Virus record (IMG/VR): IMGVR_UViG_3300046617_000092
Coordinates: 1 to 28,860 of that record
Length of the DNA stretch: 28,860 nucleotides
Source: a virus
Strand: one strand, 5' to 3'
Under the pieces are notes generated by a model. The model had not been told where the DNA came from. It did no database searches and was given only the letters and a program-made list of their open reading frames with translations. Made by a program: the position numbers and the translations under genes. This document shows positions 5,260-27,340 of this stretch, one piece after another; the first letter of the stretch is position 1; each line of letters starts with the position of its first letter.

Positions 5260-5337
5260 ATGAAACCGAAAACGAAACCGGCCACCGAGACGAAGCGGAA
5301 GACGAAGACGAAGGCAAAACCGGCCGCAAAGAAATAA
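5260..5337 (+). CDS. Lysine/threonine-rich peptide, doubtful
   Basis: This 25-residue ORF consists almost wholly of Lys, Thr, Ala and Pro (MKPKTKPATETKRK and on). A GGGAGA lies about 8 nt before the ATG. Lys-rich peptides of this type occur in high-GC bacteria and may bind nucleic acid, but the ORF is so short and simple that it could be chance. A hairpin begins 4 nt after the stop. Confidence 0.35.
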   Translation: MKPKTKPATETKRKTKTKAKPAAKK

Positions 5338-6935: not shown

Positions 6936-9900
6936 TTACTTTTGCGGGAAAGCCGCATCGAAGGCCTCGTCCGGAGTGGGAGCGGCGCCGAATATCCCGT
7001 TCTTGCCTTCCGATGCGAAACGGGCGTCTTGCGCATAGGTGCGCATGGCCTGGGCCAGCTCCGTGGGCTTGGCCGATTGCAACTGCTTGGCGAGCGCCAC
7101 CACGCGCGGCGTGTACTCCTGCGCGCCCAGCAGGCCCACCTGGTTAACCGCGTCGTCGAGATTCGGCAACCCATGCGCCCTGGAGGCCTCCAGGAGATCG
7201 AGCGCTCCCTGCACCGTGGGAGTCAGAGTCCAGGCCGGATCGTTCTCCACTTTAGTCAGCGAGGGAGCGATGCGCGCCAGGCGGTTCCGGATCTCCGGGG
7301 GCGTGGTGTCCACCTGCATGGGATCGCGGAAGAAGCGCCCGAGCAGAGCCTGGTTAATGCGCGCCTTGCCCGCCGGCGTGAGATCGCCCTTCGCCGCATA
7401 GGCGGCCACTTCCTGCGAGTTGATGGCGCCATCCTGGATCATGCGCTGCAGCACCTCGACGCCGTCCTTGCTGGCCATCACATCCGCCAGCGTGGCCTGC
7501 GGGCCCCTGGCGTCCAGACTCCCGCCGATATAGTCCAGCGTGGACTGAGACACCCGACGCGAATCCGCCACCGCTCTCTCGGATGGCCGCAGCTCGGCGG
7601 TGGCGTCGTCGTTGAAATCGGTCACCGCGGTCTGTTTCGTTTTGCCGCCGGTGAATTCGGAGTCTGCAATCTCGCGCGTTAGGACCGGCTGCTTCATGCG
7701 GCCGACGTCTGCCGGATCGATGCCAAAGTGCGAGGCGTTCTGAGTCAGTAGATCGCGATAAGCCTGCATCCCCGCGGGATTGAGCGCAGCCACCCGTTGC
7801 AGGATCATGCCGCGGCCATTGCCGCCGATTGTATTACCCTGCTCGTCAACCGGAGGCGGTCCCTCGGTGGCGTCGGGGTTCGTATTGATCAGGCGCCGCG
7901 GGTCGAACTTGGCCGGCGTGGCGCCGTTGAAGACCTTGGCCTGGTTCTCGGGCTTGGTGTAATCCCGATCATTCACCAGGCCATAGTTCTCGTTGGGACC
8001 GAATGTCAGACCGTTGTGGGAAGTCTGGAGGTCGGCCAGCTCCCGGAGTTTGTAGTTGGCCTGGTATGTGCGGCCGGAATCGTTTGATACCGGGATGCTG
8101 GTCTGAGTGCCCGTCGTGGGGGAGGTCGCCGCCGACGGCGCAGGAGCCGCTGGCCCTTCAATCCCGATCGCGTCGTTAGACGCGGGCGATTGCCATGCAG
8201 CATTGGGCCGCATCCACGCCCGTGGGTTAGCCGCTTTGTCCAGGCCTGGAGGAATGTTTGGATTGGGTGGTCCTTGCAGGGGTGGCTGGTCGCCTGGAGG
8301 CATCGGTGCGCCCGATCCCCGGTAATCGTCCGCTGACTGCCCCATGCGTGCGCCTCCGGATGGGGGCGTGGATGGAGGCGAGCCACCAGGTGGGATCGGA
8401 GTAACGTCGTCGTCGCCTGCGATGCGCAGAATTTGGGACGCGCGCAGCGCCGCGGCGCCGGGGTTCTCTGGTTTCAATCCGCCTGTAAGCAGGCGCACGC
8501 CTGCGGGGGAGTAAAGCAGTTTAGCCACCGCTCGGCCCCCAAGAACGTACAAGCCCTCCCCTGCCAGGGCTGGCAGCCCGAGGTGAGGCGCGTATAAAGA
8601 CAGACCGATGGAACCGGCTATGCCGGTCGCTAGCGAGCTCGTCTGCGCCACCAGAGCCGTGCCGCTGGGGTTTGGGTTATCGGCCACCATCTTGGCGCCC
8701 AAGAAGAATTTGTCCAGTGAGGCGCGCAGCGCGGGGTTGGGATACAGCAGTTTTTTCGTCTCGCGGCCCAGATTGTCCCACTGGTTGGAAATGCTTTGCG
8801 AATGCGAGAAGCCACCCTCCTGGGTCGCGGTGTCGAATAATTTCTGGATGTAAGCCCGACCAACCTGCGGCAGCACATCGGGCGCCTGCCCCTGGATTTT
8901 ACGCAGGAAGTCGATGCCAGTGTCGTTCTTCCAAGTCAGTTGATTGAATGCCTGGACCGGCTCGTCGCGCAGTTTGTCCGCCAAGTCGGCCACATCCATT
9001 TTGGTTGCATGCGTGGCGCGGCCCTTTTGCAGGCTCGCAAGGTTATCGGGTCCCAGCTTCGCCACAGCCGCGTTGATCCCCTCCGTTAAATCCGGGATGA
9101 TGCCGGCCGCCATACCCTGCGAGGTGTTCCGTAAGTTCGGGTTGTCGACCCGCCCCATGGTTAGAAGGCCGCTGCGCCCCTGCTCCGCGGCTTGCGCCGG
9201 GATGAAATCCGGCCCCTTCAGAATGTTGCTGACCGCCTGATAGCCCGCGCTCGATGCGCGATCGCTGGCCGGCATCCACTGCAAACTGTCGTAGACCGGC
9301 TGCAATTGCTGCTTGATGCCGCGGACATCCACCGGGGCCTGGACGTTTGCCATCACCGGGACGCTCTCGGTCTTTCCGGTCGCCCTGCCGACGTTGTCGG
9401 TGATCGGCCGCTGCATCGTTTTCACCGGCACGCTAACCGTGTTGGCCGGATCGTCGGCGCCTTGCCACGCGCCGGAATAGGCCGCGTCTTCCTGGAGCTT
9501 GAGGCCCGCGATGTTGCTGTCGAGCTTCGCGCCCGCAGCCGCTCCTGCGGACTCGGGAGTCGCGGGAGTGGGGCTGGCCTGCGCCGCCAGACTGCCTGCA
9601 GTGCGCTGCAGCGCCCCTTCCGTAGTGCGTGCCGCGTCTGCCGCCACGCCGGCGCCCATGGGCGATGTAGCCGCCAGCTTTTGCACGCCCTGCACAAACT
9701 TGTTGCCGGTGAGCGTGCCGAGCGGGAGATTTGCGCCTTGATCTTGCAGGTAATCGACGGCCACCTGTTGCGTTGGATTTAGTGTGCTCTTGATCGTCGG
9801 CCGCGGGATGTTCCCCGCCATATCGCGCAGCGTAGCGCCGCCCTCAGGACTCCCTGGGCCTCCCGCGAAAACACCCATGGTGGTGGCATGCGCTATCGCC

Positions 9901-10742
9901 GTGGCGTTGTCTGCGCCATTCAGGCGTGCCTGCGCATAGGTCATGGCCGCCGCGCCCGCCAGACGCACGGGACGCGAAGCCGGACCCATCACAGTTAGTG
10001 CGCCGCCGGTTAACGCGCCTTCCGCCGCGGCCTTCAATGCATCTGGCCATCCCTTGTCGGATTCCTGGACGGCTCCCAGCGCTGCGAAACCAGCTACAGG
10101 GCCGCCCACGTCCGCGGCGATTGCAGCCGTTGGAAGGGACGCCACGCCCTGAGTCACTCCCCGGTATAACTGACTCGGCAGATCGGTGCGCCCTCCGGAG
10201 AGTCGCTGCGCCTGCTGTTCCTGCTGTGCCGACGCCCCGCGCGCCCAGTCCGCGATTTGCTTCAACGCGGCGACCTTATTTGTTCCCGTGACGGAAGCGA
10301 TGCCGTCGGCCGCTTTGTCGAGGAGATCGAAAACGTTGGCTGTCAGATGATCGGTTGCAGCCGATGCGCCTTCAAAGCCCGCTGCCACCTGGCGGGCGGG
10401 ATTAACCACGGCTTCATGCCAAAGATTCGACAGGAAGCCGGGTGTTTTCGGGGATTGGTTCTGCGCGTGGATCTGGTCGAAGATATCTCCACCCGAGGCG
10501 TCGATGCGGGGTCCTGGCAGCTTCGACACATCCACAGGCTGCTGTACGGCAGTCTGCGCTTTGGAGGCTAACGAATCTGTTTCAGGATCTCCGGTGACGC
10601 TGCCCCCATACCCGCTGCCGTCTCCCGCGCCGCTGCCGCTGATGCCGATCCTGGTCGGGCCAGTGCTAGAGAGTCCGGTGTCCGCGGGGCTTGGCTGGCT
10701 CTGCTGCGCGTGAATCTGGTCGAAGATATCTGCCATTTTCAA
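6936..10742 (-). CDS. Giant (1268 aa) virion/ejection-type protein with C-terminal ddrB-like ParB domain
   Basis: The N-terminus carries the motif DIFDQIHAQ twice (residues about 5-13 and 86-94) within a low-complexity Gly/Ser/Pro linker. Residues about 100-330 are Ala/Gly-rich with several hydrophobic stretches. A helical core follows, then a Pro-rich linker at roughly 760-880. The C-terminal part from about 885 matches the ddrB-like ParB nuclease type: 'YKLRELADLQTSH', 'GLVNDRDYTK', and the GNGR signature near residue 975. In phage P1 a related domain is in DarB/DdrB, which is injected with DNA and protects against restriction. Position after other ejection-protein candidates suggests this protein travels into the cell with the genome. 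It overlaps the 634-aa gene by 4 nt. Confidence 0.75.
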   Translation of the reverse strand: MKMADIFDQIHAQQSQPSPADTGLSSTGPTRIGISGSGAGDGSGYGGSVTGDPETDSLASKAQTAVQQPVDVSKLPGPRIDASGGDIFDQIHAQNQSPKTPGFLSNLWHEAVVNPARQVAAGFEGASAATDHLTANVFDLLDKAADGIASVTGTNKVAALKQIADWARGASAQQEQQAQRLSGGRTDLPSQLYRGVTQGVASLPTAAIAADVGGPVAGFAALGAVQESDKGWPDALKAAAEGALTGGALTVMGPASRPVRLAGAAAMTYAQARLNGADNATAIAHATTMGVFAGGPGSPEGGATLRDMAGNIPRPTIKSTLNPTQQVAVDYLQDQGANLPLGTLTGNKFVQGVQKLAATSPMGAGVAADAARTTEGALQRTAGSLAAQASPTPATPESAGAAAGAKLDSNIAGLKLQEDAAYSGAWQGADDPANTVSVPVKTMQRPITDNVGRATGKTESVPVMANVQAPVDVRGIKQQLQPVYDSLQWMPASDRASSAGYQAVSNILKGPDFIPAQAAEQGRSGLLTMGRVDNPNLRNTSQGMAAGIIPDLTEGINAAVAKLGPDNLASLQKGRATHATKMDVADLADKLRDEPVQAFNQLTWKNDTGIDFLRKIQGQAPDVLPQVGRAYIQKLFDTATQEGGFSHSQSISNQWDNLGRETKKLLYPNPALRASLDKFFLGAKMVADNPNPSGTALVAQTSSLATGIAGSIGLSLYAPHLGLPALAGEGLYVLGGRAVAKLLYSPAGVRLLTGGLKPENPGAAALRASQILRIAGDDDVTPIPPGGSPPSTPPSGGARMGQSADDYRGSGAPMPPGDQPPLQGPPNPNIPPGLDKAANPRAWMRPNAAWQSPASNDAIGIEGPAAPAPSAATSPTTGTQTSIPVSNDSGRTYQANYKLRELADLQTSHNGLTFGPNENYGLVNDRDYTKPENQAKVFNGATPAKFDPRRLINTNPDATEGPPPVDEQGNTIGGNGRGMILQRVAALNPAGMQAYRDLLTQNASHFGIDPADVGRMKQPVLTREIADSEFTGGKTKQTAVTDFNDDATAELRPSERAVADSRRVSQSTLDYIGGSLDARGPQATLADVMASKDGVEVLQRMIQDGAINSQEVAAYAAKGDLTPAGKARINQALLGRFFRDPMQVDTTPPEIRNRLARIAPSLTKVENDPAWTLTPTVQGALDLLEASRAHGLPNLDDAVNQVGLLGAQEYTPRVVALAKQLQSAKPTELAQAMRTYAQDARFASEGKNGIFGAAPTPDEAFDAAFPQK
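10461..10488. repeat. Direct repeat copy 2 (in-frame, DIFDQIHAQ)
   Basis: These 28 nt match 10704-10731 at 27 positions. The copies are 243 nt (81 codons) apart and in the same frame of the 1268-aa gene, and each encodes DIFDQIHAQ. Confidence 0.85.
10704..10731. repeat. Direct repeat copy 1 (in-frame, DIFDQIHAQ)
   Basis: These 28 nt lie at the very start of the 1268-aa gene and match 10461-10488 at 27 positions, in the same reading frame. Confidence 0.85.
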
Positions 10743-12643
10743 AACTTCCAGCCGCTCCGTTGAGCGAGGGCGCGAGCTTTCACTGGATCGTTGCCGGCGG
10801 CTTGGTAAAACTGCTGCGCCGTGGCTGGGTCGATGGTTTTACCGCCGCCGTTAGGCAATGTCGGACTCTGGCCACCAGGCGCCTGCCGATCCTGCACTGT
10901 TCCACCCTGCCCGATGCGCCGCTGGATATCCCCAATCTGCTCGTTGTAGGCTTGGTGCCGATTCGCCATGTCCTGCCGCAGAACCTGCGCCACATGGATC
11001 GTCTGCGCCATTGTGGCATTCGCCGGGTTGAAGGCCTCCACCTCGTGCCGCGCCGAGTCGGAGAGCGAGCCAGACAGCCCAGGATTGCTGGTCACCTTGG
11101 CTACCTCGTTCACCGCCACCTGGCGAGCCGCGTTGTAAGCCGCTACGTTGGCATCGCCGAATGCGTTCGATGCCAGACTGCGCAACGGCTGATTGAGCAG
11201 CGGGGATCCCGTGTCCATAACGCCGCGCGCTTGCGAGAGCAACAGGTCGAGGTTCTTGCCCGCCGTGTTTTCAAATGCGGTCACCGAGTCGCGCTGCTTG
11301 ACCAGGCCCGTGAGAGATGCCGTGTTGGCTTTGAATGCCGCCCCCTCGCTCGCGATATCCAGCGGACCCTTGGCCGCCGCGGCGTCGATCACCTGGCGCA
11401 TCGCGTAGGCGTTGCGCATCCCCATGGCCGGCATTTGCCCGGTCTTGCGGTAGGAATCCGAGAGCATGTCAATGGCGTCCGGAGTGAGTCCGGACTGCGC
11501 GTTCTTGGCCGCTTCGACGCCCGAGGCTACCGAGATTTTGACCGGCACGGTGGCCTTGGCTTGCGCCACTGAAGCCGTCGTTCTGCCGACTCGGTCCGAC
11601 GAATCGGTGAAGGCCTTGTTCACCGCCGCTGTGCCCAGCGGGATGGCCGCGTTAGCCTGTTGCTCCGCGGTCTGGCCTTCCTGGGTCACCATGGCCTTCA
11701 TGGCCGGATCGGAGTAGTTGTCCGGGTTGAACATCGCCACCGCCCGCGCGTGGATGGTTTGCGGGGTGATGCTGCTGGCGTTCTGGAATTCCAGATTCGC
11801 CATGCCATATTTGGGCTGCTCCGCGACGGGGACCTGCGAGCCGATGAACTGCTTGGACCCGACCGCCGTGGTGGGGAACGCGATATTGGGATGGTCTTGT
11901 TTGAGCTTGGCCACGGCGGCGGGATCGTCCACTACGCCGGTGGCGGGGTTCAGCGCCGTCTGGAATTCCTCGATGGCGCTCTTGCGGTCGAGGTCCGACG
12001 TTTGTGCCTGCGTCTTGGCTGTTTCGGCTTCTTTGGCGTTTTGGTCGTTTGCCACGGAGATCAGGCCCAGCGAACCGACGTGCGCTTTGAATGCGACCGG
12101 ATCGGCTGGCCAGGCGGCGATGACCGGGTAATTCTTCGGGCCGCCCTGCGCATAGAACTGCTGATTCGCAGCGTCCAGGCTCGGCTGATCGGTAACGCCT
12201 TTCACCGAGTTCTGGTAAAGATTGGTGTACGTCTCCTCGTTTTTGTTCTGCTCCGCGGTCTGCGCCAGCGAGGTCGTTTTCAAACCCTGGTAGAGTTTCA
12301 CCAGTTCCGCGGTGTGAGCCGGAAGCACGCCGGGGATAGACGGCAGCGTGCCATTCGCCGCGGCCTGGGAGAGAACCTGGCCCGCATTGTTGGCAGGGTC
12401 CGCAAGGAAAGCCATGGAGTTGCGCTGGCTCTGGAGCATCAACTGCTTGGACTGGTTGTCGGTGGCCAGGTCCTGCACCTGTTGCTGCGCGAGTTGTGTC
12501 TGCTGGCCCATCAACTGGCGTTGGGCCGCACCTGTGGCGAGTGAGTTCAGTTGCGTGCCGGTATCCGGCGCCTGCTGTTGGGGCGGGATGATCTGCGGGA
12601 GATTGCTGAAACTCGTTGGCGGGGCCATGGGTGACCAGGGCAT
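10739..12643 (-). CDS. 634-aa helical phage protein, ejection-protein candidate
   Basis: The protein opens with a Pro/Gln-rich tail (PPQQQAPDTG) and a long Gln-rich helix (residues about 35-75, QQTQLAQQQVQDL). A mostly helical body of Ala, Gln and Asn follows, with few Cys and no membrane helix. The end reads 'YQAAGNDPVKARALAQRSGW'. The composition and position, after the Ala/Gly-rich repeat protein and before the giant ParB-tailed protein, correspond to P22 gp7/gp20/gp16 ejection proteins, which cross the envelope to carry DNA in. No sequence family was recognised. It ends in an ATGA overlap with the 1268-aa gene. Confidence 0.65.
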   Translation of the reverse strand: MPWSPMAPPTSFSNLPQIIPPQQQAPDTGTQLNSLATGAAQRQLMGQQTQLAQQQVQDLATDNQSKQLMLQSQRNSMAFLADPANNAGQVLSQAAANGTLPSIPGVLPAHTAELVKLYQGLKTTSLAQTAEQNKNEETYTNLYQNSVKGVTDQPSLDAANQQFYAQGGPKNYPVIAAWPADPVAFKAHVGSLGLISVANDQNAKEAETAKTQAQTSDLDRKSAIEEFQTALNPATGVVDDPAAVAKLKQDHPNIAFPTTAVGSKQFIGSQVPVAEQPKYGMANLEFQNASSITPQTIHARAVAMFNPDNYSDPAMKAMVTQEGQTAEQQANAAIPLGTAAVNKAFTDSSDRVGRTTASVAQAKATVPVKISVASGVEAAKNAQSGLTPDAIDMLSDSYRKTGQMPAMGMRNAYAMRQVIDAAAAKGPLDIASEGAAFKANTASLTGLVKQRDSVTAFENTAGKNLDLLLSQARGVMDTGSPLLNQPLRSLASNAFGDANVAAYNAARQVAVNEVAKVTSNPGLSGSLSDSARHEVEAFNPANATMAQTIHVAQVLRQDMANRHQAYNEQIGDIQRRIGQGGTVQDRQAPGGQSPTLPNGGGKTIDPATAQQFYQAAGNDPVKARALAQRSGWKF

Positions 12644-12644
12644 G

Positions 12645-13025
12645 TTACTCTGCCTCCATTGCGCCGGTATCCGATGCCGAAGGACCTGCCGCGCCCGGCT
12701 GCGTGGGATATCCGAACTGCTTGCTTTGCGTGTCGTAGCTGGTTGCGCCTGGCGCGGAATTCCAGTTGACGTTCGCCCCTCCGGTGAAGAAATTGCCGAT
12801 GTTCTGCGCCATCGACATTACGTTGCCGCCGATGTTCTGGCCCATCTGTGCGAGCGTCATCGGCTGCTGCTGCTGTTGGGGCTGCTGCTGCATGCCTTGC
12901 GGCCCCATCGCCAGCGCGTTGGGCTGCTGCCGCTGCTGCTGCTGCTGGGGCGCGAACCAGCCGCCGCCCTGCTGCCCCTGGCCCTGGCCCTGCATCGGCG
13001 GGCCGACCATATTCCAGCCGCCCAT
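12645..13025 (-). CDS. Gln/Gly-rich low-complexity phage protein
   Basis: This is a 126-residue protein. The first half is nearly all Gln, Gly, Met and Pro, with several poly-Gln runs coded mostly by CAG. The middle has an amphipathic or weakly hydrophobic helix (GQNIGGNVMSMAQNIGNFF) and the end is polar. The start overlaps the previous stop by one base (TGATG at 13025) and the next gene follows after 1 nt. Low-complexity proteins of this type accompany ejection proteins in podoviruses. The poly-Gln DNA looks like a simple repeat but is fully coding. Confidence 0.55.
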   Translation of the reverse strand: MGGWNMVGPPMQGQGQGQQGGGWFAPQQQQQRQQPNALAMGPQGMQQQPQQQQQPMTLAQMGQNIGGNVMSMAQNIGNFFTGGANVNWNSAPGATSYDTQSKQFGYPTQPGAAGPSASDTGAMEAE

Positions 13026-13927
13026 CAGAAGCCTCCCATGGCGAGTGCGTTGACGCCAGATCCCACTTGCCCCAGCCCCGCATTCCAGGCATTCGCCGCT
13101 CCGATGTCACCTTGCGCCTGCGCTTGTCCCGCGCCGATCTGGGTGTTACCGAGGTAGTTTGCAGCGCCCATGGTGTTCTGCGCCGTCAGATCTTCGGACT
13201 GCATCCCCGCCGTGCCGGCGTATTGCTCCGCGCCCGTGTTCAACGATCCGCCGTACTCGCTGGCTTGGGTCCCTTGCGAGCCTGCGTATTGCGCCGCCTG
13301 GGTCCCCGCGGTACCGGCGTATTCCGAAGCCTGTTGGCCCATGCCTGCTGTCGTAGCCAGACGGTTGAAGGTGTTCTGCTGTTGGGTCTGGTACTGGTTG
13401 AAAGCGTTGTTGTAATCGCTGGCTGCCGTGTTCTGGCTGTACTGATCGAGGGCTTTCGCCGTGCCGCCGGCGTTGAGCGATCCCCCCGCGGCCGCGGCGC
13501 GCTGCATGGCCTGCTGGCCTTGCTGCATTTGGAACTGGTAGCCGGGATCGTTCTGCTCCATCATCGTGGCGTTGAACGGCGTGTTCAACGATCCACCGGG
13601 AGCCAGGCCGGTCGCGAGCTGATTGGCTGCTTGCGCGCCCACCCCGGAATAGGGACTGACTCCCGCGCCGGCAGCTTGCCCGGCGGTGACCGCGCCCGCG
13701 CCGGCAGCGCCCGCGGCTGTATTGGCATTGGTAGCCGCTGTGCCCGCCGCGCTTGTGACTCCAGCGCCGGCAGCAGCTCCGGCAGCGGTGATGCCGGGGT
13801 TGACCTGGTTGGCCGCGTTAGTAACCGTCTGGCCAGCCGTGTTGTAGCCTGCGGACAGGGCGTTGGCTGCGTTGTGAGCCGCGGAGGCGGCCTGGCCCGC
13901 GCCGATCATTCCAAAGATTGCTGACAT
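13025..13927 (-). CDS. Ala/Gly-rich DNA-transfer/ejection protein candidate
   Basis: This 300-residue protein is very rich in Ala, Gly, Gln and Asn. The first 100 residues are small-residue helix with a weakly hydrophobic start (MSAIFGMIGAGQAASAA). A conserved-type block follows at about 125-195 (DPGYQFQMQQGQQAMQRAAA, then TAKALDQYSQNTAASDYNNA), a pattern I associate with phage 'DNA transfer protein' annotations. Residues 200-243 contain four exact 11-residue repeats of the form AxEYAGTxGTQ. Such hendecad repeats form right-handed coils. Position and composition indicate a protein that leaves the virion with DNA, like P22 gp7/gp20, but the assignment is by type and not by a catalytic motif. 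Confidence 0.65.
   Translation of the reverse strand: MSAIFGMIGAGQAASAAHNAANALSAGYNTAGQTVTNAANQVNPGITAAGAAAGAGVTSAAGTAATNANTAAGAAGAGAVTAGQAAGAGVSPYSGVGAQAANQLATGLAPGGSLNTPFNATMMEQNDPGYQFQMQQGQQAMQRAAAAGGSLNAGGTAKALDQYSQNTAASDYNNAFNQYQTQQQNTFNRLATTAGMGQQASEYAGTAGTQAAQYAGSQGTQASEYGGSLNTGAEQYAGTAGMQSEDLTAQNTMGAANYLGNTQIGAGQAQAQGDIGAANAWNAGLGQVGSGVNALAMGGF
13199..13330 (-). repeat. Four 11-residue (33-nt) tandem repeats in the ejection-type protein
   Basis: The residues read ASEYAGTAGTQ, AAQYAGSQGTQ, ASEYGGSLNTG and AEQYAGTAGMQ (200-243), with no gaps. They are diverged at the DNA level. Confidence 0.8.
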
Positions 13928-13937
13928 TTTAGTTTTC

Positions 13938-14462
13938 CTATGCGGGCTTGCTCACGCCCATATCGATCAAGTCGTGCAAGATGCCGCCGGTCATGAAAGC
14001 CTTGGTGTTGCGCCCGTACTGAGTCATACCCATGTACTTCGGCAGGAAGCGCAAGACGCGCTCGTTCCAGGCCGGGACGTGCGCCACCAAGCGCCGGCAA
14101 GGCGTGTTCGCCCAGAGCCACCCCGGCAGTTCGCGCCCGACGTCGTGAGACTTGCCTCCCCAGGTGTGCGGCAGCAGCGCGAAATGCAACTGCCAGCACA
14201 CGACGTTCTCCAGATACAACGGGACCAGGCCGAGCAGCTCGTCCCCGTCGAAGGCCAGCAGATACCAGAAGCGCGGATCGGTGGGGACTTGGTACTGTTC
14301 GACCGGGGGAATATAGTCGTCGCCCATCCTCGGATAAAGTTGCGGGTGGGTCAGGATGCGCCGCACCAGCTCGAAGTCGAAGGTCCGCTCAAATCGCAAA
14401 ATTGCCGATCCCCGCCGCCCCGCCCGGAATGGTCGGAGGACTTGAGCCCTGGTCGCACTCAT
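13938..14462 (-). CDS. GNAT-fold acyltransferase-like phage protein
   Basis: The longest frame gives 174 residues. The recognisable part starts at 'LRFERTFDFELVRRILTHPQLYPRMGDD', followed by a central beta strand (FWYLLAFDGDELLGLVPLY) and a helix after 'LPGWLWANTPCRRLVAHVP', the plan of GNAT/DUF2824-like proteins found in podovirus virion operons. The ATG at 14462 has no good ribosome site and overlaps the upstream gene by 74 nt. A TTG at 14397-14399, 11 nt before the end of that overlap and just ahead of the conserved part, is the better start and would give 153 residues. The substrate is unknown. It lies 10 nt before the ejection-protein gene. Confidence 0.6.
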   Translation of the reverse strand: MSATRAQVLRPFRAGRRGSAILRFERTFDFELVRRILTHPQLYPRMGDDYIPPVEQYQVPTDPRFWYLLAFDGDELLGLVPLYLENVVCWQLHFALLPHTWGGKSHDVGRELPGWLWANTPCRRLVAHVPAWNERVLRFLPKYMGMTQYGRNTKAFMTGGILHDLIDMGVSKPA

Positions 14463-16648: not shown

Positions 16649-17196
16649 TGCCAGGTCAGACAGAATGAGGCCACGCCGTTGGTGTCCGTCGACCCGTCCG
16701 AAGATACGACGGCGAACGAGAAAACGTCATTGGCCGCGATGGCGCCGGCGGTCAGGAACGTACTGTAAGTGAGCACCGTATCCGGCTTGGTGGTCTGGTT
16801 CACTGTGCAGGTGATCAGCGGCGCGCCGTTCTGGTTCACCGTCACGACCAGGTCGGCCGAGATCGCCTTGCGCAAAACGGCGGTGACTTGCTGCGCGGTG
16901 CCGGAGGCCTGCGCGGTCACATGCGGGGCGATATCGGCGCCCGCCGCTAGGTTGAACAGCACGAGGCGCGCCCACAGCAGATCGGGATTGGCGGCCTGGG
17001 CGAGCTGCTGGAAGAACAATAACCAGGTGGCTGTGATCTGCCCGCTCCAGCCGCTGGGCCAGGACGAGAAGAAATCCGTCTGGACTGGCACGGCGGTGAC
17101 ATCCGACGCGGAGCTGGGCGTGTAGTTCGTGGCCGCCTTGCCCAAATCAGGCCGTCCCTTGAATGGCTTCGATATATGCGTTCGCGACGCAGACAT
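16645..17196 (-). CDS. Phage structural protein of unknown function, 183 aa
   Basis: This protein has a polar N-terminus (KPFKGRPDLGKAATNYTPS), an amphipathic helix around 45-70 (GQITATWLLFFQQLAQAANP), and a C-terminal beta domain of alternating small and hydrophobic residues ending in GVASFCLTWQ. The ATG at 17196 overlaps the gp10-like gene by 50 nt. A TTG at 17143-17145, directly after that gene's stop, is an alternative start. The position after gp10 is where P22 has its tail needle (gp26), but this protein lacks the long coiled coil of a needle, so it is not called that. Confidence 0.55.
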   Translation of the reverse strand: MSASRTHISKPFKGRPDLGKAATNYTPSSASDVTAVPVQTDFFSSWPSGWSGQITATWLLFFQQLAQAANPDLLWARLVLFNLAAGADIAPHVTAQASGTAQQVTAVLRKAISADLVVTVNQNGAPLITCTVNQTTKPDTVLTYSTFLTAGAIAANDVFSFAVVSSDGSTDTNGVASFCLTWQ

Positions 17197-18844
17197 CGAC
17201 GCCCACCGCCAGCGTTTGCGTGGACCTGGTCAGCCAGGTCTGGGCGCGCGTGTCGCTCCAGGAGAACGAGAGAGAGACGCCCGTCGATGCCGTCTGATGA
17301 CTCACCAGTTGCCAGATTCTGTCCCGCCCCTTGCCGCAGCGGTTCCAATACACCCGCTGCTTGGCCGTTACGTCGCAGTCGAGTTCAAAGCGCGAATAGA
17401 AGCGCCACAGGTTCTCGGTCGTAAGGTGCGGGGCGCGGCGCATACGGTAAATCGCGACGCCGGCGTCATCCAAAAACGCTTCGCTCTGGATGTAGATCTT
17501 GCCCGACTGCGAGCCGCCCACGTAATGCTGTTCGGTCTCGGTGAACGCCACTACCGCGTGGAACTGCTGGAGGCACATGCCCCAGACCGGGAAGCCATTC
17601 GCGTCAAAGGTCCCTGCCCAGTACCCGCGCTCGTGCCATAGACCGGTGGTCAGATCGTAGACCCAGGTGGCATTGCCTGAGGGGAAATTCAAGACCCAGA
17701 ATTGGTGGCCCCGGTCGATGTAGGTGTAACCGATGGCATCTTCCACCGTCGAATAAGCGGCCCATGCCGTTTCCACCGCGGCCGTCGAAATCTTCTGCGG
17801 CCGGAATCCGACCTCGAGGAACGCCACGCGATCGCCGCGGCGCACGTCGCCGCCGATCCAGGCGAGGCCTTCGCCCAATCGGCACAGGCTCCAGGGAGCC
17901 ACGCAGCCGTAGTGCATGATGGCGCCGGGATTGGGGGCCCACGGCACCATGGGATTCGTTGCGCCTTGATCCTGGAAGACTTCGGAGGCCTCCAGGTCGC
18001 CGAAGACGTAGAGCTGCTCATGGTCCGCCTGCATGGCCGCCACGTTATCCGGGTAGGTTTCCTTGTCGAAGTAGTCCAGCGGATTCCATTGCGTGCCGTC
18101 GCCGGGGGCCGAGAAGTAGATGGTCTTGCCGTTGGGGACGGCCGCGAAGAAATACGTATCGAGGAACGCGCCCATGGAGGCCGTCACAAAGGTGTCCAGC
18201 CACTCGATCCCCATGCCTCCGGAAGATCCAGGCGTGCCCCAGCTTGTCGTGCCGGTGGCTTCGCCAAGGCCTGGGCCGGGGGTGGTATTCACCCCCGCGA
18301 TGACGTTCGATCCGGCGATGAAGCCCATGCCGCTCTGGATAACGACCGTCTTGCCCACGTCCGAGAGTTCGAAGGGTCCGCCCGTGCCGGCCGTCAGTGT
18401 AAATCCCGTGGCGTCTGCCGGGTCGATCACCAGGTCGGTGAGCGAGATTGAGAACTGGCACTGCTCCACGCCCGAGCCGGTGTCGATGTAGGCGTTGCCG
18501 GCGGAGACCACAAAAAGTTGGCCACCATTGGCGAAAAACTGGACCGGGTTGCCGTCGTTGCCCACATTTCCATGCGGGGTGTAGGTGGGAGGCGATCCTG
18601 GAATGACTTCGTAGAGGATCGCGCCGCCGACCGCGAAGAGTCTCTGCTCGCCGGGCCAGAGACCGCGCAGCGGGCCGGTAGGCAGGGTGCCGTATAGCGT
18701 CAGCCCTGGCGTGCGAGTCAAGGCCATCGGCCCTTTCTCCTGGCCTTCAATCGCTTCGCCGTACCAATTCACACACCTCTCGCTCGATGCCGCGATGCTG
18801 GCAAGAGTGCTGCTGCGTCCGGAGGTGAACGCATCGAAACGCAT
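17147..18844 (-). CDS. Packaged DNA stabilisation / tail hub protein, P22 gp10-like
   Basis: This protein of 565 residues (P22 gp10 has 472) has a start of the family type: 'SGRSSTLASIAASSERCVNWY' followed by 'PGLTLYG'. It is built from repeated beta-propeller-like segments such as GLWPGEQRLFAVGG, FFANGGQLFVVSAG, AMQADHEQLYVFGD, GLAWIGGDVRR and FWVLNFPSGNATWVYDL. Near the end, 'FSWSDTRAQTW' matches the family's 'SxDxGxTW' element. In P22, gp10 binds under gp4 to form the tail hub and closes the portal after packaging. The gene follows the gp4-like genes by 3 nt, the same order as in P22. Confidence 0.85.
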   Translation of the reverse strand: MRFDAFTSGRSSTLASIAASSERCVNWYGEAIEGQEKGPMALTRTPGLTLYGTLPTGPLRGLWPGEQRLFAVGGAILYEVIPGSPPTYTPHGNVGNDGNPVQFFANGGQLFVVSAGNAYIDTGSGVEQCQFSISLTDLVIDPADATGFTLTAGTGGPFELSDVGKTVVIQSGMGFIAGSNVIAGVNTTPGPGLGEATGTTSWGTPGSSGGMGIEWLDTFVTASMGAFLDTYFFAAVPNGKTIYFSAPGDGTQWNPLDYFDKETYPDNVAAMQADHEQLYVFGDLEASEVFQDQGATNPMVPWAPNPGAIMHYGCVAPWSLCRLGEGLAWIGGDVRRGDRVAFLEVGFRPQKISTAAVETAWAAYSTVEDAIGYTYIDRGHQFWVLNFPSGNATWVYDLTTGLWHERGYWAGTFDANGFPVWGMCLQQFHAVVAFTETEQHYVGGSQSGKIYIQSEAFLDDAGVAIYRMRRAPHLTTENLWRFYSRFELDCDVTAKQRVYWNRCGKGRDRIWQLVSHQTASTGVSLSFSWSDTRAQTWLTRSTQTLAVGVDVCVANAYIEAIQGTA

Positions 18845-18847
18845 AGC

Positions 18848-19588
18848 CTAATCCGTGTTCCTCAGGCCGCTCAGGTAGTTGTACATGCCCGCGCCAGACC
18901 GCACCTCGTCCGCTTGCAACCGCGGACAATTCAGCGCGGTATTTACGATACCCAGCGCGCGCTGCGCCTTGTCGAAGACTCTCTGCACCGCGTCGGGAAC
19001 CGGCAGCCCGTGCATGGATGAAAGCCGGATGGCCAGGCCGTTCAGCCAGTACTCCGCGTAGCCGGGTGGGAACGCGATCGGCGTGGTGAGTGCAGACGGC
19101 GCCACGTTGGAGGCCCAGGAGAACGTCTCGATCATGTACGCCCCGTCCGGGATGGGTTCCAGGTACACGTTGGCCGCGCCCACAGTCCCATCCAGGGCCT
19201 TGTTGGCGTAGTCGCAGTACATTCCCTCCGGGTAGGTATAGATCGCCTGCAGGGCGATATCGGCCCACTGCTTGCGGCTCCAGACTTTCATCGGGCGGCG
19301 AATGGTGGGCGACGTCGGCATCAGGAAATTCGCCTGCGTGATGCGGACCGGGCGCGGGGCGTTCCAGGTTCCTCCCGTTCCCCAAGAGTAGGTCTGCTGC
19401 TGGTTGACCGTGGGGAACTGGTTCTCGACCTCGGAGAAGATCATGCTCCGGGTCGCGTTGCTCGAGTCCACCATGTTCTGGAAGACCAGCAGGCCGCGCG
19501 TCATCTCGCTGGGCGAGGCGGCGCGCCCGGCAGCCTTCAGGTGGCCGATGAGCATCAGGGCGAGGTTGATGTGGTCGGAGGCGAGCAT
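18848..19588 (-). CDS. Head-tail adaptor, P22 gp4-like (long paralogue)
   Basis: This 246-residue protein has an N-terminus with the gp4 pattern: 'ASDHINLALMLIGHLKAAGR', 'ASPSEMTRGLLVFQNMVDSS', then beta segments around 'QTYSWGTGGTW'. The C-terminal helix pair ends 'WLNGLAIRLSSMHGLPVPDAVQRVFDKAQRAL', matching the family's conserved 'LAxxLAxxYGxP'. P22 gp4 (166 aa) forms a ring between portal and gp10 and is the first tail factor added after DNA packaging. Here an extra middle region makes the protein longer. The gene follows a shorter paralogue by 3 nt and precedes the gp10-like gene by 3 nt. Confidence 0.8.
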   Translation of the reverse strand: MLASDHINLALMLIGHLKAAGRAASPSEMTRGLLVFQNMVDSSNATRSMIFSEVENQFPTVNQQQTYSWGTGGTWNAPRPVRITQANFLMPTSPTIRRPMKVWSRKQWADIALQAIYTYPEGMYCDYANKALDGTVGAANVYLEPIPDGAYMIETFSWASNVAPSALTTPIAFPPGYAEYWLNGLAIRLSSMHGLPVPDAVQRVFDKAQRALGIVNTALNCPRLQADEVRSGAGMYNYLSGLRNTD

Positions 19589-19591
19589 GGG

Positions 19592-19975
19592 TTAAACCGT
19601 GGGGGCCGGGCTGCCGGCGGGTGAAGTGATGATCTCGGCCTTGCTCGACTGCGCCATCATGACGAGCGTTTGCGTGGCTGGCTTGCCGTACGGCTCGAGC
19701 AGATCGAGCGCGAGGTTAAAGCCCAGCGCCCGAGGCCAGCCGTTGGGCAGCGTCAGAGTGTCGGCCAGATTGACAGTGACAGCCACCGGGACGAAGGTAT
19801 AGACCGAGGGGTCGTAGTTGGCGGCGAGGGACTTTTTCAGCGCCGCATTCCACGAACCGATGAGGTTGTTCAGGAAGATCTGCGAGAGGGTGTAATCCTC
19901 CTCCGCCGGCGTTTCCCCGGCAGCGACGGCGTCGATGATTTGCAGGCTTACGGTGAGGAGATCGGAGACAAGCAT
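19592..19975 (-). CDS. Head-tail adaptor, P22 gp4-like (short paralogue)
   Basis: This 127-residue protein has the same plan as the next gene's product but is about half its length: 'VSDLLTVSLQIIDAVAAGET', 'SQIFLNNLIGSWNAALK', a short beta region ('PSVYTFVPVAVTVNLAD'), and a C-terminal helix 'FNLALDLLEPYGKP'. The common gp4/head-completion pattern is clear by eye, though identity is low. Two such genes in a row suggest two stacked adaptor rings or one that replaces the other. It starts 76 nt after the small 76-aa gene. Confidence 0.7.
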   Translation of the reverse strand: MLVSDLLTVSLQIIDAVAAGETPAEEDYTLSQIFLNNLIGSWNAALKKSLAANYDPSVYTFVPVAVTVNLADTLTLPNGWPRALGFNLALDLLEPYGKPATQTLVMMAQSSKAEIITSPAGSPAPTV

Positions 19976-21088: not shown

Positions 21089-22342
21089 TTACCCTTCGAC
21101 GCAGCACGCCATCTCGCGGTACAGCGGCGCAAAGTCGTACAGCACATCCAAGCGATTGATCTCCTTGCGATAGACCCCGTCGAACGCGCGAATGACGGAA
21201 ATGTTGAGGCCGGTCTCCGGGTCGTTGGCTTCGGTCACCAGCGCGCCCATGCCGGGCTCGGGGTTGTTCAGCTTCACGCAGACGAAGGCGAATGCGTTCT
21301 TATGCAGCAGCAGGGCTTGCGGAGACACCGCATTGGCCGCGCCGTCCATGGTGATGGCCGCGCCGTCTATTGGAATGGCGGTCACATTCTGGTACTGGCC
21401 GGAGGCCGTGAGGGCCGGAGCGACCGAGACGCCGCCCTTGCCGGTGCCATCGCTCGAGAAAGCCGCGAGCACCACGAACTGCTGCAGGTCGCCGGTCGAT
21501 TGGCGGGTCTGCGGATGCACGCTGTAGACGTTGGCGATGGTGAAGCGGTCGCCCTGGTTCAGGCGCGCGGCCGCCGCGGCGGTCCAGCCGCGGGTGGACA
21601 GGATCATGGTCCCGTTGTTGCCGCCGTCCGCGCTGACTACGCCGGTGACGGTGCCGGTGGCATCCACCAGCGGGGAGCCGCCCAGCGGTCCCACGGTCCG
21701 GGTGTAGATGGTCTGGTCGCGATAGACGTTGTAGCCCAGCGAGTCCACCATCTGCCCTTGCGTCCACTGCTTGCTGATCGCGCCGGTGGGGTTATACAGG
21801 GTCTTGACGCCGTGCACGAAGGTGCTCGAAAACTTGCGATTGACGATCAGGTTCAGCTCTTCGTCCTGCGGCAGGCCTTGCTCGATGAGCAAGTCGCCGG
21901 CTTTCAGATAGGGCTGTTCGTCGACCGGGGTCGTCGCCGGGGTGCCCACGGCGTTGAACGTGTTCCAGGAGATGTACTGCGCGCCCGCGGCGTTGATGTA
22001 GGACGCCAGGGCGAGGGCGGCGGGTTTGGAATACAGCTCGCGCGCTTCCCGGATGGACAAGGTTTTCTCCACCGAATCCCAGTCGAAAGCGACTTGGGCG
22101 ACTTGCGCGACCTTGACCGGGGTCACCTGGTCGGTGAGGGGCTGGGGATCGTACTTCAGCCCGGTGCTTACCGTGAAGCGGTACGGCTTGCGGACGTCGA
22201 CCGACGCGCCGACCTTCATCGCCTTCTTGGCGAATTCGGGAGTGACTGCGGTGCTCATATTGCGGCACACGTTGAGTGCGCCGCCCAAGTCCATGAGCAC
22301 GAGCTTGGCGAAGACTTGCGGAGTTACAACTGCGTTGGGCAT
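21089..22342 (-). CDS. Major capsid (coat) protein, P22 gp5-like
   Basis: This 417-residue protein (P22 gp5 has 430) has the coat pattern of the P22 family: a start 'TPQVFAKLVLMDLGGALNVCRNM', then 'FAKKAMKVGASVDVRKPYRF', 'FDWDSVEKTLSIREARELYS', and the end 'KEINRLDVLYDFAPLYREMACCV', which matches the conserved 'KLDVLYGxAxxxPELAxRI' tail. It should form the HK97-fold shell with the scaffold encoded upstream. AGGTG lies 7 nt before the ATG. It follows the scaffold gene by 34 nt and is followed by a stem-loop. The assignment rests on motifs and on neighbours in the correct order. Confidence 0.9.
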   Translation of the reverse strand: MPNAVVTPQVFAKLVLMDLGGALNVCRNMSTAVTPEFAKKAMKVGASVDVRKPYRFTVSTGLKYDPQPLTDQVTPVKVAQVAQVAFDWDSVEKTLSIREARELYSKPAALALASYINAAGAQYISWNTFNAVGTPATTPVDEQPYLKAGDLLIEQGLPQDEELNLIVNRKFSSTFVHGVKTLYNPTGAISKQWTQGQMVDSLGYNVYRDQTIYTRTVGPLGGSPLVDATGTVTGVVSADGGNNGTMILSTRGWTAAAAARLNQGDRFTIANVYSVHPQTRQSTGDLQQFVVLAAFSSDGTGKGGVSVAPALTASGQYQNVTAIPIDGAAITMDGAANAVSPQALLLHKNAFAFVCVKLNNPEPGMGALVTEANDPETGLNISVIRAFDGVYRKEINRLDVLYDFAPLYREMACCVEG

Positions 22343-23363: not shown

Positions 23364-25559
23364 TTACTGCTGAGGCTGTTGCTGAGGTTGCTGCTGCTGC
23401 TGCGCCTGTTGCGCGGCCGCGGCGGAGGCCTGCTGGTCGGACTGTTGAGTGAGTGCGTCCGCCGAGGCCTGGTGCTGCTGTAACGCGAATTCGTGGCTCC
23501 GGTCCATCTGGCTATCGACCAGGTCCCGGGTATGTTGGATGGCGCCGATTTCCTGCTCGAGGCGCGCGATGGCGCTCTTGACGCCGGCATTCAATTCGGC
23601 CACCCGGATCTCAGCCTGGATCTGCATCCGTTTGGTTTCTTCCTGGAGCTGCGCGATTTTCAGGCGCGCGTCCACCTCGGGCTGTTTCGACGCGAGCTGC
23701 TGCTGGAGGTCCAGGATCAGGTTGTGCTGCGTCACCGTCATCTGGTGCGCCGCGGCCATAGCCTGCTGTGCCTCGGGAGGAAGCTGCGCGCCGGGCTTCT
23801 GCGGCTGCAGCGCCGGCGGGAGAGACTTCTCATAGCGGTCGGCGATCTCTTCCGAGCCTGGCGCGTCCAGGTTGCGGAACAGGATGTCGCCGGCTCTCCC
23901 CATGAAGGTGGGATCCGCGGAAGCGATCTGCGAGTAAGTGTCGAAGGCCTCTTCCCGCTGACTCGTATAACTCGGTCCCGTGGACACCGCCGCGGCGTAT
24001 TCCCCCACGTCCATGCGGTGATGCACCGTCTCGCCGGTCTCCTTGTCGAGGTAGGGCTTGGCGGTGTTGACCCGCACCACGCGCGTCTTGCCGTCTTCGG
24101 TCCGGACCGGGACGTTCTTCTCGCCGCTGTCCAGTTTTTGGATGAGCGCCAGCAGGATGCGGCCTATCGTCTTCCGCGTCCTGGCTTCGTTGCCTTGGAA
24201 GTGATAGTTCGCGTTGTCGCTTTGTTTTTTGTTGCGCTCGATGGCGATGCCCGAAACTTCCTGATTTGCCGGCCTGCCCTGCGCCGGATCGAACATCCCC
24301 ATGCAGGCCTTCATGGCGTCGACCGCCTGGTTGTAGCCCATCACCAGGGCCTGAATGGGAGGCTCCACTGCCTCGCGCTCCGGCGGCGGGATAGGCCTGC
24401 CCTGCTCGTCGTATGCGTTGTACGGAACGACTGCCCTGGCTTCCTGGTTGATCTTTTCCCAGATCTCTTCCAGGCCGTCGATGGAACCCACCGGCGCTTT
24501 GTAAGGGTTCTTGGGCGCCGCGGCGATGAACTCGGCGATGTTCGAAATGTACAGGTTGATCAGCCGCTGCGGGTCCTTGGCCTGCCGGATGAGCGAGTAG
24601 GTGCGGGTGATCCCGTCCACCACCTGCTGATCGCCCCACTGCGGGACGATGCCGAAATAGGGGACCACCCATTCCGTCTCGTCCAGGATTTGCGCGCCGT
24701 CCAGGATGTACTGGTAGATCACGACGTCGTCCTCTTCCCACGGGTCGACGCTCTCGTCGACCAGCTCGGGGGCGGCTTCGTCTTCCCACCTGGTCTGCTT
24801 GTCTTTCAACTGCACCATGCGGCGGGGCTTGTGCTCTTTCTTCCAATACTCCGCGACCTGGACTTCCTCGCCCGCCTTGCCGGTGCCGAACCATTCCGGC
24901 GCGGGGCATTCGCCGCTCGAGAAAAAGTTAGCCTGGTTGGCCAGCGTGTCTTCGCCGTAGAGGCGCTTGTGCTCGTCCTTCGAAATGTTGGTCGTGACGA
25001 AGCAATAGTCCGCGTCCTGGCAGTCATAGCGCTTGGCCGGGCCAAAGAGCACGGAGAACTGGTTCTTGATCGGTTCCAGCCACGCTTCCTGCTCGCGCGA
25101 TTTCGGTTTGTACTTCGTGGTCACCCGGATGAAAGCGCGGCCCGAGGTGACCTGGTGCTTCCTGGCGGTATCGTAGACTTCGTCGGAATCCGACTCATAT
25201 TCGATGTGCCGGATGCGCCCCTGCAGCATGTCGGAGGTCTTGGGGTTGCCTCCGTCGAGCGGGGTGATCCGGATAGCCGGCTTATCCTGCCGGCCGCCAT
25301 TCACCACTTGCGCGATGAAGGTGGGCAGGCGGTTCTCGGTCAGGATGGGACGGTGCGCCGCCTTGCGTTGCTCCAGCGCGGCCTGGCTCCATTGCGAAGA
25401 TCCGCCGCCGTCGAGGGGCGTGGCTGCCGCGAACCTGAGATCGTCGAGAGCTTCCTCGCGGTCGATCTGGTCCGCCGCTAGGGCATAGGCGTGGCGCTCG
25501 CGCGCTTCTTTCAGGAAGTCGTCGAGCTCGGCGGGAGAAACGGTCGGGGATTTGAACAT
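23364..25559 (-). CDS. Portal protein, P22 gp1-like
   Basis: This 731-residue protein (P22 portal 725) includes characteristic stretches 'RQAKDPQRLINLYISNIAEF', 'APKNPYKAPVGSIDG', 'VSGIAIERNKKQSDNANYHF' (the family's 'GxAIxxRQxQGD'), 'TRKTIGRILLALIQKL' and 'VSTGPSYTSQREEAFDTYSQ'. The last 150 residues form a long Gln/Ala coil that matches the P22 portal barrel helix and end in poly-Gln. The portal is a dodecamer at one capsid vertex through which DNA enters and leaves, and it binds terminase and the gp4 adaptor. It follows a 51-aa gene by 4 nt. Confidence 0.92.
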   Translation of the reverse strand: MFKSPTVSPAELDDFLKEARERHAYALAADQIDREEALDDLRFAAATPLDGGGSSQWSQAALEQRKAAHRPILTENRLPTFIAQVVNGGRQDKPAIRITPLDGGNPKTSDMLQGRIRHIEYESDSDEVYDTARKHQVTSGRAFIRVTTKYKPKSREQEAWLEPIKNQFSVLFGPAKRYDCQDADYCFVTTNISKDEHKRLYGEDTLANQANFFSSGECPAPEWFGTGKAGEEVQVAEYWKKEHKPRRMVQLKDKQTRWEDEAAPELVDESVDPWEEDDVVIYQYILDGAQILDETEWVVPYFGIVPQWGDQQVVDGITRTYSLIRQAKDPQRLINLYISNIAEFIAAAPKNPYKAPVGSIDGLEEIWEKINQEARAVVPYNAYDEQGRPIPPPEREAVEPPIQALVMGYNQAVDAMKACMGMFDPAQGRPANQEVSGIAIERNKKQSDNANYHFQGNEARTRKTIGRILLALIQKLDSGEKNVPVRTEDGKTRVVRVNTAKPYLDKETGETVHHRMDVGEYAAAVSTGPSYTSQREEAFDTYSQIASADPTFMGRAGDILFRNLDAPGSEEIADRYEKSLPPALQPQKPGAQLPPEAQQAMAAAHQMTVTQHNLILDLQQQLASKQPEVDARLKIAQLQEETKRMQIQAEIRVAELNAGVKSAIARLEQEIGAIQHTRDLVDSQMDRSHEFALQQHQASADALTQQSDQQASAAAAQQAQQQQQPQQQPQQ

Positions 25560-26029: not shown

Positions 26030-27340
26030 TCAGCCCATCCATGCGTAGGCGCCGGAGGACTGCGGCCGCTGCGCGCGCTGCGCTTCTTTCGGTTTCTGGG
26101 GAGGCTTCAGTGCCACGCCGGCATACCTGAATGCGTCTGCAGCGTGACTGGCGTCGTCGTGCAGCGGCTCGCGCGTGGCCGTGCCCAGCGTCTCGATCTC
26201 GCCGTACCTGTACCTGCGCAGGTACTGGATGCCCTGGTCGCACTTGCCGGCGTCGAACCAGGACTGCGGGAAGATGGTCCGGCCGGCGTTGATGCCGTCC
26301 GCGACGCTCAGCATCGGCACGATCTGTACCTTGCGGCCGGCGGCGCGCATCAGGTCCTCGATCGACTTGCCGGTGCCCAGCGACTTCGCCCGCGCGTCGT
26401 GCGGCAGCCAGTCCGTGCCGTACAGATAGGGCCTGTCCTGAAGCAGCTTTAAATAATGGGTCAGTGGCTCGTGCGAACCATCGACGAAGTCGATGAAGCG
26501 ATACTCAAACGGAAACCGCTGCACGAACCAGATCGCCGTATAATCGCCCCAGCCCAGATCCCAGAACGTCTCGACCGGGCGCGACGGATCGTAAGGCACC
26601 CTGCCGGTGAGCCGCCCTTCCTTCTCAGCGGCCGCGATCTCTTTACCGTAGACCGCGCCCTTCAGAGCCGACTGACAGGAACCTCCGTAAATGTGATCGA
26701 AGGTCTCCCGGTCGGTCACTTTCAGCAGCTCGATCTTGCGCCGCGACGTTTCGCTGAGCCAGAGGTTGTCTTCATAGCTGGTGCGCACCAGCAGAGTGCC
26801 TGGTGGAGGATTCAGCACCCACCGGGTGTACGTGTCGTCGCTTGGGAGCTGCGGGTTGAAGGTGATCCAGATCTCCGATCCTTCCGTGCGGATCGTGGGG
26901 ATCACCACCTCCCAGGAATTCTTGGAGACGTTTCCAGCCTCCTCGACCCACACTCCGTTCAGACCCTCGTACGACTTGATCTCAGCGACGTTGTGCCGCA
27001 GGCCCGCGAAGACGAACTCGCTGATGCCGGGCCGGTCGATCGACTGGCCGTACATGCCGAGCTGGTGCTGGACCGTGCCGATGATTCTGGCCTTCTCGAC
27101 CCGGTAATAGCCGCCCAGGTTGAGCCGCAGAATCTGCTCGCTCAGCAGATGGTGGACCGATTCCGCGATGGACTTCTGGGTCTCGCGCGCGCAGAGGAAA
27201 CGGACTTTATTCTGCGCGCCCAGCGCCAGCAATGCCTGCGCTACCGACCAGCTCTTAATGCCGTCGCGGCCGCCGAAAATGACTTTGTAATCGTGCGGGT
27301 CAAGCAGGCCGCGGAGTTTCTTCGGGAAGTCTACTCGCAT
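26030..27340 (-). CDS. Terminase large subunit
   Basis: This 436-residue protein has an N-terminal ATPase domain with a Walker A region GGRDGIKSW (residues 23-31, Lys29) and Walker B VWVEEA (130-135; Glu133 and Glu134), followed by 'WITFNPQLPSDDTYTRWV'. The C-terminal nuclease domain starts with ETFWDLGWGDYTAIWF (metal-binding Asp), continues with DWLPHDARAKSLG and ends with EPLHDDASHAADAFRY, the last conserved acidic motif. It pumps DNA into the procapsid and cuts the concatemer. The Walker A is odd: the usual Gly before Lys is Ile here. It overlaps the small-subunit gene by 41 nt. Confidence 0.92.
   Translation of the reverse strand: MRVDFPKKLRGLLDPHDYKVIFGGRDGIKSWSVAQALLALGAQNKVRFLCARETQKSIAESVHHLLSEQILRLNLGGYYRVEKARIIGTVQHQLGMYGQSIDRPGISEFVFAGLRHNVAEIKSYEGLNGVWVEEAGNVSKNSWEVVIPTIRTEGSEIWITFNPQLPSDDTYTRWVLNPPPGTLLVRTSYEDNLWLSETSRRKIELLKVTDRETFDHIYGGSCQSALKGAVYGKEIAAAEKEGRLTGRVPYDPSRPVETFWDLGWGDYTAIWFVQRFPFEYRFIDFVDGSHEPLTHYLKLLQDRPYLYGTDWLPHDARAKSLGTGKSIEDLMRAAGRKVQIVPMLSVADGINAGRTIFPQSWFDAGKCDQGIQYLRRYRYGEIETLGTATREPLHDDASHAADAFRYAGVALKPPQKPKEAQRAQRPQSSGAYAWMG

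Follow-up and report, generated by a model that had tools for sequence, protein, structure and literature searches.

A gp16-type protein of a P22-like podovirus carrying a DdrB-type cassette, a candidate cargo of the ejection apparatus

The window analysed here, by which we mean the whole stretch of DNA, is the 28,860-base IMG/VR virus record IMGVR_UViG_3300046617_000092 (positions 1-28,860). Its genes follow the order known from P22: terminase large subunit (TerL), portal, scaffold, coat, gp4-like adaptor, gp10, gp7-like, gp20-position and gp16-type genes. Features given by coordinates below lie on the minus strand unless noted. The terminase large subunit (26030-27340; PF04466, E 1.3e-34), the P22-type portal (23364-25559; PF16510, E 1.8e-130), the P22-type coat protein (21089-22342; PF11651, E 3.4e-26), the gp10-like head closure protein Hc3 (17147-18844; phrog_578, E 1.9e-61) and the gp7-like DNA ejection protein (13025-13927; phrog_598 ‘DNA ejection’, E 1.3e-9) all matched known families. 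The 634-aa protein at the gp20 position (10739-12643) was assigned by its place; it had no match in phages, Pfam or NCBIfam and has an orthologue in the soil relative (L002) described below. A 126-aa ORF separates its gene from the gp7-like gene.

The third gene of this ejection cluster, behind the gp7-like and gp20-position genes, encodes a protein of 1268 aa (6936-10742). The ORF starts with TTG and residue 3 is an in-frame ATG. Gene order puts it in the place of P22 gp16, as an earlier note on this DNA had claimed, and a place beside virion genes is the late-gene context expected for a ddrB-ParB domain. No hdf, darA, ddrA, ulx or darB neighbours were identified among the scanned window genes, and PADLOC returned nothing. 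The window phage is a short-tailed P22-like podovirus, and its host is probably a soil member of the Acidobacteriota, which we infer because a related prophage sits in a Bryobacterales assembly.

The earlier note had proposed that the C-terminal part of the protein holds a ddrB-like ParB domain, and a Pfam profile search bore this out. PF18763 (ddrB-ParB) was the single Pfam family found in the protein by hmmscan, with 52.6 bits (E 6.2e-14) against a curated cut-off of 27.6 bits and a match spanning profile positions 2-119 of 121. The domain occupies residues 889-1024 (7671-8078) and was also detected by a DNA scan for PF18763, in which 14 control genomes were negative. A chance or composition-driven match was ruled out by the Pfam score and by the tblastn matches given below. 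The three motifs named in the note are present: LxxSH as LQTSH (residues 905-909), NDRDY (residues 924-928; 7959-7973) and GNGR (residues 974-977; 7812-7823), the last invariant in our alignment. The ddrB-like family has been described with a conserved active-site arginine (PMC5512222), and R977 of the GNGR motif is the putative pocket arginine, assigned by motif. The family's helix with a conserved tyrosine is present in the alignment and the model, where the invariant Y995 (7758-7760) falls within a helix. For the family's Asp/Asn at the end of strand 2 there are candidate residues, in a strand that is not alignable to the published figure. The note was mistaken in one respect, the attribution of the domain to P1 DarB. 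According to PMC5512222 the prototype of the family is P1 DdrB, another Dar protein, and DarB is a methylase with a SWI2/SNF2 ATPase; a DarB origin was rejected since DarB is a methylase-helicase.

The alignment has conserved blocks that continue well beyond the ParB domain. The conserved unit, which we call the cassette, runs from about residue 878 to 1265 (approximately 390 residues) and consists of the ParB fold plus a helical part (residues 1025-1265; 6948-7670) that is common to the DdrB of phage D6, to Piluca and to others, and that forms helices in the model. For this whole module, to about residue 1265, the earlier estimate of the ‘last third’ of the protein was right. A tblastn search of 50,697 phage records gave 14 with a match (best E 9e-11). 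Every match falls within the C-terminal part; some extend from about residue 890 to 1265, and one is the ddrB gene of the P1-like phage D6, adjoining darA and ddrA homologues. The helical part travels with the ParB domain, as the two are found together as a 388-aa unit inside another gp16 protein, that of the G496 prophage (see below). Residues 870-1268 were modelled with AlphaFold2 (mean pLDDT 80, pTM 0.58), and the model resembles predicted phage proteins of the DdrB-like and related kinds; its second- and third-ranked matches have query TM-scores of 0.71 and 0.69. Compared by fold with solved structures, the model had no significant match, the top one being a ParB N-domain (E 0.53). A sequence search of solved structures returned mostly designed helical proteins, which we judged to be artefacts.

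Outside its C-terminal part, the 1268-aa protein had no Pfam or PHROGs match, and no direct match to phrog_770, the P22 gp16 family. A weak match pointed to gene_40 of Sphingopyxis phage VSN-002, which occupies the equivalent place in a P22-like phage. We built a gp16 C-domain profile from the C-terminal regions of VSN-002, Pam1, Pam5 and Y1_10, the last of which matches phrog_770 (3.4e-13). This profile scored 33.5 bits with P22 gp16, 22.6 with the window protein and 21.8 with its relative L002, and 42.0 and 51.5 bits with the Bryobacterales and G496 prophage proteins; the highest scores in two shuffle controls, run with closely related profiles, were 6.9 and 5.2 bits. Judged by this homology, which was reached through intermediates (profile and hhalign), the body of the protein is a relative of P22 gp16. 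The earlier description of a long ‘Ala/Gly-rich body’ undersells it, as it has a middle region (residues 317-563; 9054-9794) that is conserved in L002, L274 and L287, and a conserved gp16-type C-terminal domain (residues 564-777, profile match 606-770; 8412-9053) whose limits are set by the G496 insertion. A Pro-rich linker (residues 778-884; 8091-8411), defined by composition (23% Pro in residues 776-884), dN/dS and alignment, leads to the cassette. VSN-002, Pam1, Pam5 and Y1_10 have their hydrophobic stretches in the domain that also holds the one of the window protein (residues 696-714). The membrane side of the cassette is unreadable from topology because the cassette precedes the gp16 C-domain in G496 but follows it in the window protein; a topology with a cytosolic cassette is not claimed, and L002 has no hydrophobic stretch above threshold.

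The ddrB-ParB domain was absent from all eight ejection-cluster-end proteins of P22 and six other P22-like phages. It was also absent from the 40 IMG/VR contigs fetched by a P22-type portal, 17 of which exceed 20 kb and many of which are fragments, perhaps short of gp16.

Close relatives carry the same fusion. The soil virus contig G001 has the same gene order and the same fusion (protein L002, 60% identity). A portal profile of this lineage led to the Bryobacterales (Acidobacteriota) assembly PMTT01000502.1, which contains a related prophage (portal 52%). Its gp16-position protein (L274 7949-11953; 1334 aa) has the layout of the window protein, with a C-terminal ddrB-ParB domain at 74.3 bits. 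In the window phage, the soil relative and this prophage, the cassette is C-terminal behind the Pro-rich linker, and in the Bryobacterales protein the linker is also the site of a GNAT-like insert (residues about 740-930; PEFRRQGLATAMYDAEKG) with a weak match to Pfam Acetyltransf_7, under cut-off at E 0.0094. The window protein has one recognized effector domain.

Searching 399 genomes from the class to which the Bryobacterales assembly belongs led to G496, where a 446-kb contig carries a P22-like prophage that has coat, gp4-like, gp10, gp7-like and gp20-position genes. Its gp16 is a single open frame of 1101 aa. BLASTP comparison with the window protein gave three main blocks: G496 residues 164-426 correspond to window residues 301-561 (32%), 472-855 to the cassette at 878-1265 (50% identity) and 885-1089 to the gp16 C-domain at 564-777 (43%). 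The cassette of G496 is internal to gp16, at a site flanked by the counterparts of window residues 561 and 564. The cassette, about 390 residues long, therefore behaves as a unit complete in itself, and so does the gp16 C-domain. From these alignments the cassette looks like a movable cargo, found at two positions in homologous gp16 carriers. In the open-access literature searched, we found no description of a ddrB-ParB domain in a P22-type gp16, nor of its two positions. The ddrB module was present in few of the searched acidobacterial genomes. Pattern scans (A1, A3) returned the known relative alone, and the ctype202 and Y11 queries and a whole-protein scan of the genome contigs returned nothing.

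The acidobacterial cassettes form a group of their own. The six sequences from acidobacterial phages make up one side of a fully supported branch in a 17-module tree. NDRDY occurs in the window, L002, Bryobacterales, G496 and G728 modules, and QPRDR in all 19 other modules of the alignment (A6). The window, G001, Bryobacterales and G496 sequences all retain NDRDY together with GNGR and the tyrosine. Between the window protein and L002, the ParB part and residues 523-700 of the gp16 part both have a dN/dS of 0.15, compared with 0.29 for the helical part and 0.48 for the linker (residues 781-884); these values are rough, with dS high and synonymous sites near saturation. Such ratios indicate that both the gp16 body and the DdrB cassette are under purifying selection, and the change to NDRDY looks like a retained variant, not decay.

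We compared the window protein with four known systems. Most of the window cassette is common to P1 DdrB, as seen through its D6 relative orf25 (about 25% identity over 299 columns); both have the ParB domain with the helical part, the GNGR arginine, the tyrosine and a virion-delivery setting. They differ in that P1 DdrB is a stand-alone Dar protein of the darA operon, whereas the window cassette is fused to gp16; in that the DdrB motif is ELQPRDR, whereas the cassette has NDRDY; and in that the cassette has no peptidase match, whereas a metallopeptidase is reported at the C-terminus of P1 DdrB (PMC5512222). Phage D6 also has the hdf, darA, ddrA and darB homologues that were not identified in the window. 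For P1 DdrB, our literature search turned up no biochemical mechanism that has been measured. P22 gp16 (phrog_770) shares operon place and C-terminal domain with the window protein, but is 609 aa long and has no cassette; likewise, gene_40 of VSN-002, a relative of the body at the gp16 position, ends soon past the gp16 C-domain and has no cassette. The cassette of the window protein does occur in a podovirus protein in Alcaligenes phage Piluca (gp047) and in Acinetobacter prophages (epsilon15-like, SLT plus ddrB-ParB), with a gene of the Piluca type placed between those for tail tubular and pilot proteins. The Piluca-type carrier differs from the window body: it is annotated as epsilon15 gp16-like and has a weak transglycosylase match, and no sequence link between the bodies was found; epsilon15 gp16 itself has no ddrB-ParB. 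Last, ddrB-ParB domains in phage late-gene proteins, some fused to a lysozyme domain, have already been described (PMC5512222). The polyvalent proteins of Iyer et al. (2017) resemble the window protein in having DdrB-ParB in a large product of a late gene whose delivery with DNA is supposed, but the described examples are multi-effector proteins, whereas here the carrier is a recognizable P22 gp16 and the cassette occurs at two positions.

Based on these comparisons, we propose, as the probable reading, that the window protein is a gp16-type ejection protein of a P22-like podovirus that carries the P1-DdrB-type cassette of about 390 residues as a cargo against restriction-type defence. By homology with gp16, the 1268-aa protein would be packaged in the virion. 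It would then enter the host together with the DNA or ahead of it, the cassette riding as cargo; P22 is reported to inject gp7, gp16 and gp20 (PMC8402733), and entry with the DNA, which the earlier note had also suggested, follows naturally from the place and homology of the protein. Early in infection the arginine pocket of GNGR may, by analogy with DdrB, bind or hydrolyse a nucleotide, act on DNA, or both, and the cassette could thereby blunt a restriction-type host defence as the DNA enters. We infer delivery with DNA from gp16, and an antirestriction or NTP/DNA activity from DdrB. The activity of the cassette may differ from that of other DdrB-like proteins because the window clade lacks the QPRDR motif.

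Other functions for the cassette were considered. It is unlikely, though worth weighing, that the cassette serves DNA translocation or head assembly, as a ParB-fold clamp for DNA or nucleotide that helps the ejectosome to grip or pull DNA, with no anti-defence role. The location of the cassette in gp16 in the window lineage would suit such a clamp, as would the replacement of QPRDR in this clade; the DNA-binding gp16-C of T7 is assigned to the cytoplasm (PMC8954989), and P1 DarA and Hdf have an additional part in head morphogenesis. However, P22 gp16 and the other tested gp16-position proteins manage without a cassette, the other P22-portal contigs show none (many of them being fragments), its position within gp16 is not fixed, and its homologues occur in unrelated late proteins of other phage types. 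Somewhat less probable again is that the cassette acts early as an enzyme, either one that cuts or nicks DNA or one that senses or depletes nucleotides, directed at host DNA, rival phages or signalling nucleotides without antirestriction activity. For DdrB-like ParB domains, Iyer et al. propose DNase activity regulated by NTP, or the sensing of NTP (PMC5512222), and the GNGR arginine is retained, but our literature search found no measured catalytic activity for any DdrB-like domain, and a nuclease that entered together with the phage genome would need some safeguard, of which none was identified. A functionless passenger decaying after a past recombination, to which the divergent motif, the few acidobacterial genomes with the module and the module split over two frames in one of them (G766) might point, is most improbable, since the low dN/dS of the ParB part, with synonymous sites near saturation, and the shared retention of GNGR, the tyrosine and NDRDY largely refute it already.

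Beyond the proposed role as an anti-defence cargo, we tentatively raise a broader idea, which we hold to be less likely than that role: the P22-type gp16 of acidobacterial podophages may be an all-purpose delivery vehicle that offers two or more docking sites, one internal before the C-domain and one at the C-terminal linker, where effector cassettes (DdrB, perhaps GNAT) are exchanged. If this is true, the ejectosome itself is an effector-injection system. Podovirus ejection proteins have mostly been studied as DNA conduits and DdrB as a head-packed protein; here the two are a single polypeptide. Together with the relatives that differ in cargo position, this fusion supplies natural constructs for learning which parts of gp16 are needed for passage, whether the cargo can be moved or replaced, and what DdrB does.

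Several minor observations were made on the searched genomes. In the acidobacterial genome G766 (contig C108, L290 7867-9830) the DdrB module is split across two overlapping frames, reflecting either a decayed prophage or a sequencing error. A 6959-aa open frame in G225:C14 matches the ddrB-ParB family and a 4053-aa frame in G764:C24 matches the gp16-DdrB alignment; both are probably giant polyvalent proteins.

Within the window protein, residues 393-522 (9177-9566) are 94% identical in amino acids to L002, with dS 0.65 compared with mostly more than 1 elsewhere, which could reflect recent exchange or extra constraint. At its N-terminus a short motif, DIFDQIHAQ..., is doubled (residues 5-17, 10692-10730; residues 86-98, 10449-10487; repeat reached by 0 of 300 shuffles). 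Short, lineage-specific doubled motifs are often seen in gp16-position proteins: the window protein, L002, L274, L287, Pam5 (L028), Y1_10 (L027) and ctNMl277 (L021) carry one, the motifs being DIFDQIHAQ, VNQFGDPI, DLFDQVHxEASAP, PPPPPGFRxV, LVPVDxDPFA, FDDLxPA and VDYAxLIAKHGGTAPE, with scores reached by 0-2 of 300 shuffles in each of the seven proteins. None was found in other gp16-position proteins such as those of P22 and VSN-002. A packaging or docking signal is a possible role.

Elsewhere in the window, the adjoining ORFs 19592-19975 and 18848-19588 both match the same adaptor-position proteins in other phages and are possibly tandem copies of the gp4-like adaptor; at the adaptor position of the Bryobacterales prophage (L270 15656-18669, plus strand) there is a row of four similar-looking ORFs. 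Upstream of the gp7-like gene, a 174-aa ORF (13938-14462) has a weak GNAT match (E 0.076), and several podoviruses have an annotated acetyltransferase gene near the corresponding place. Near the terminase gene, an ORF truncated by the contig end (27757-28860) matches ParB_N weakly (E 0.045). Read from a later start, it also resembles an N6_N4 methylase (weak match, E 0.19), and it is perhaps a ParB-methylase fusion. A tiny Lys-rich frame on the plus strand (5260-5337; MKPKTKPATETKRKTKTKAKPAAKK) was spotted by eye in the DNA.
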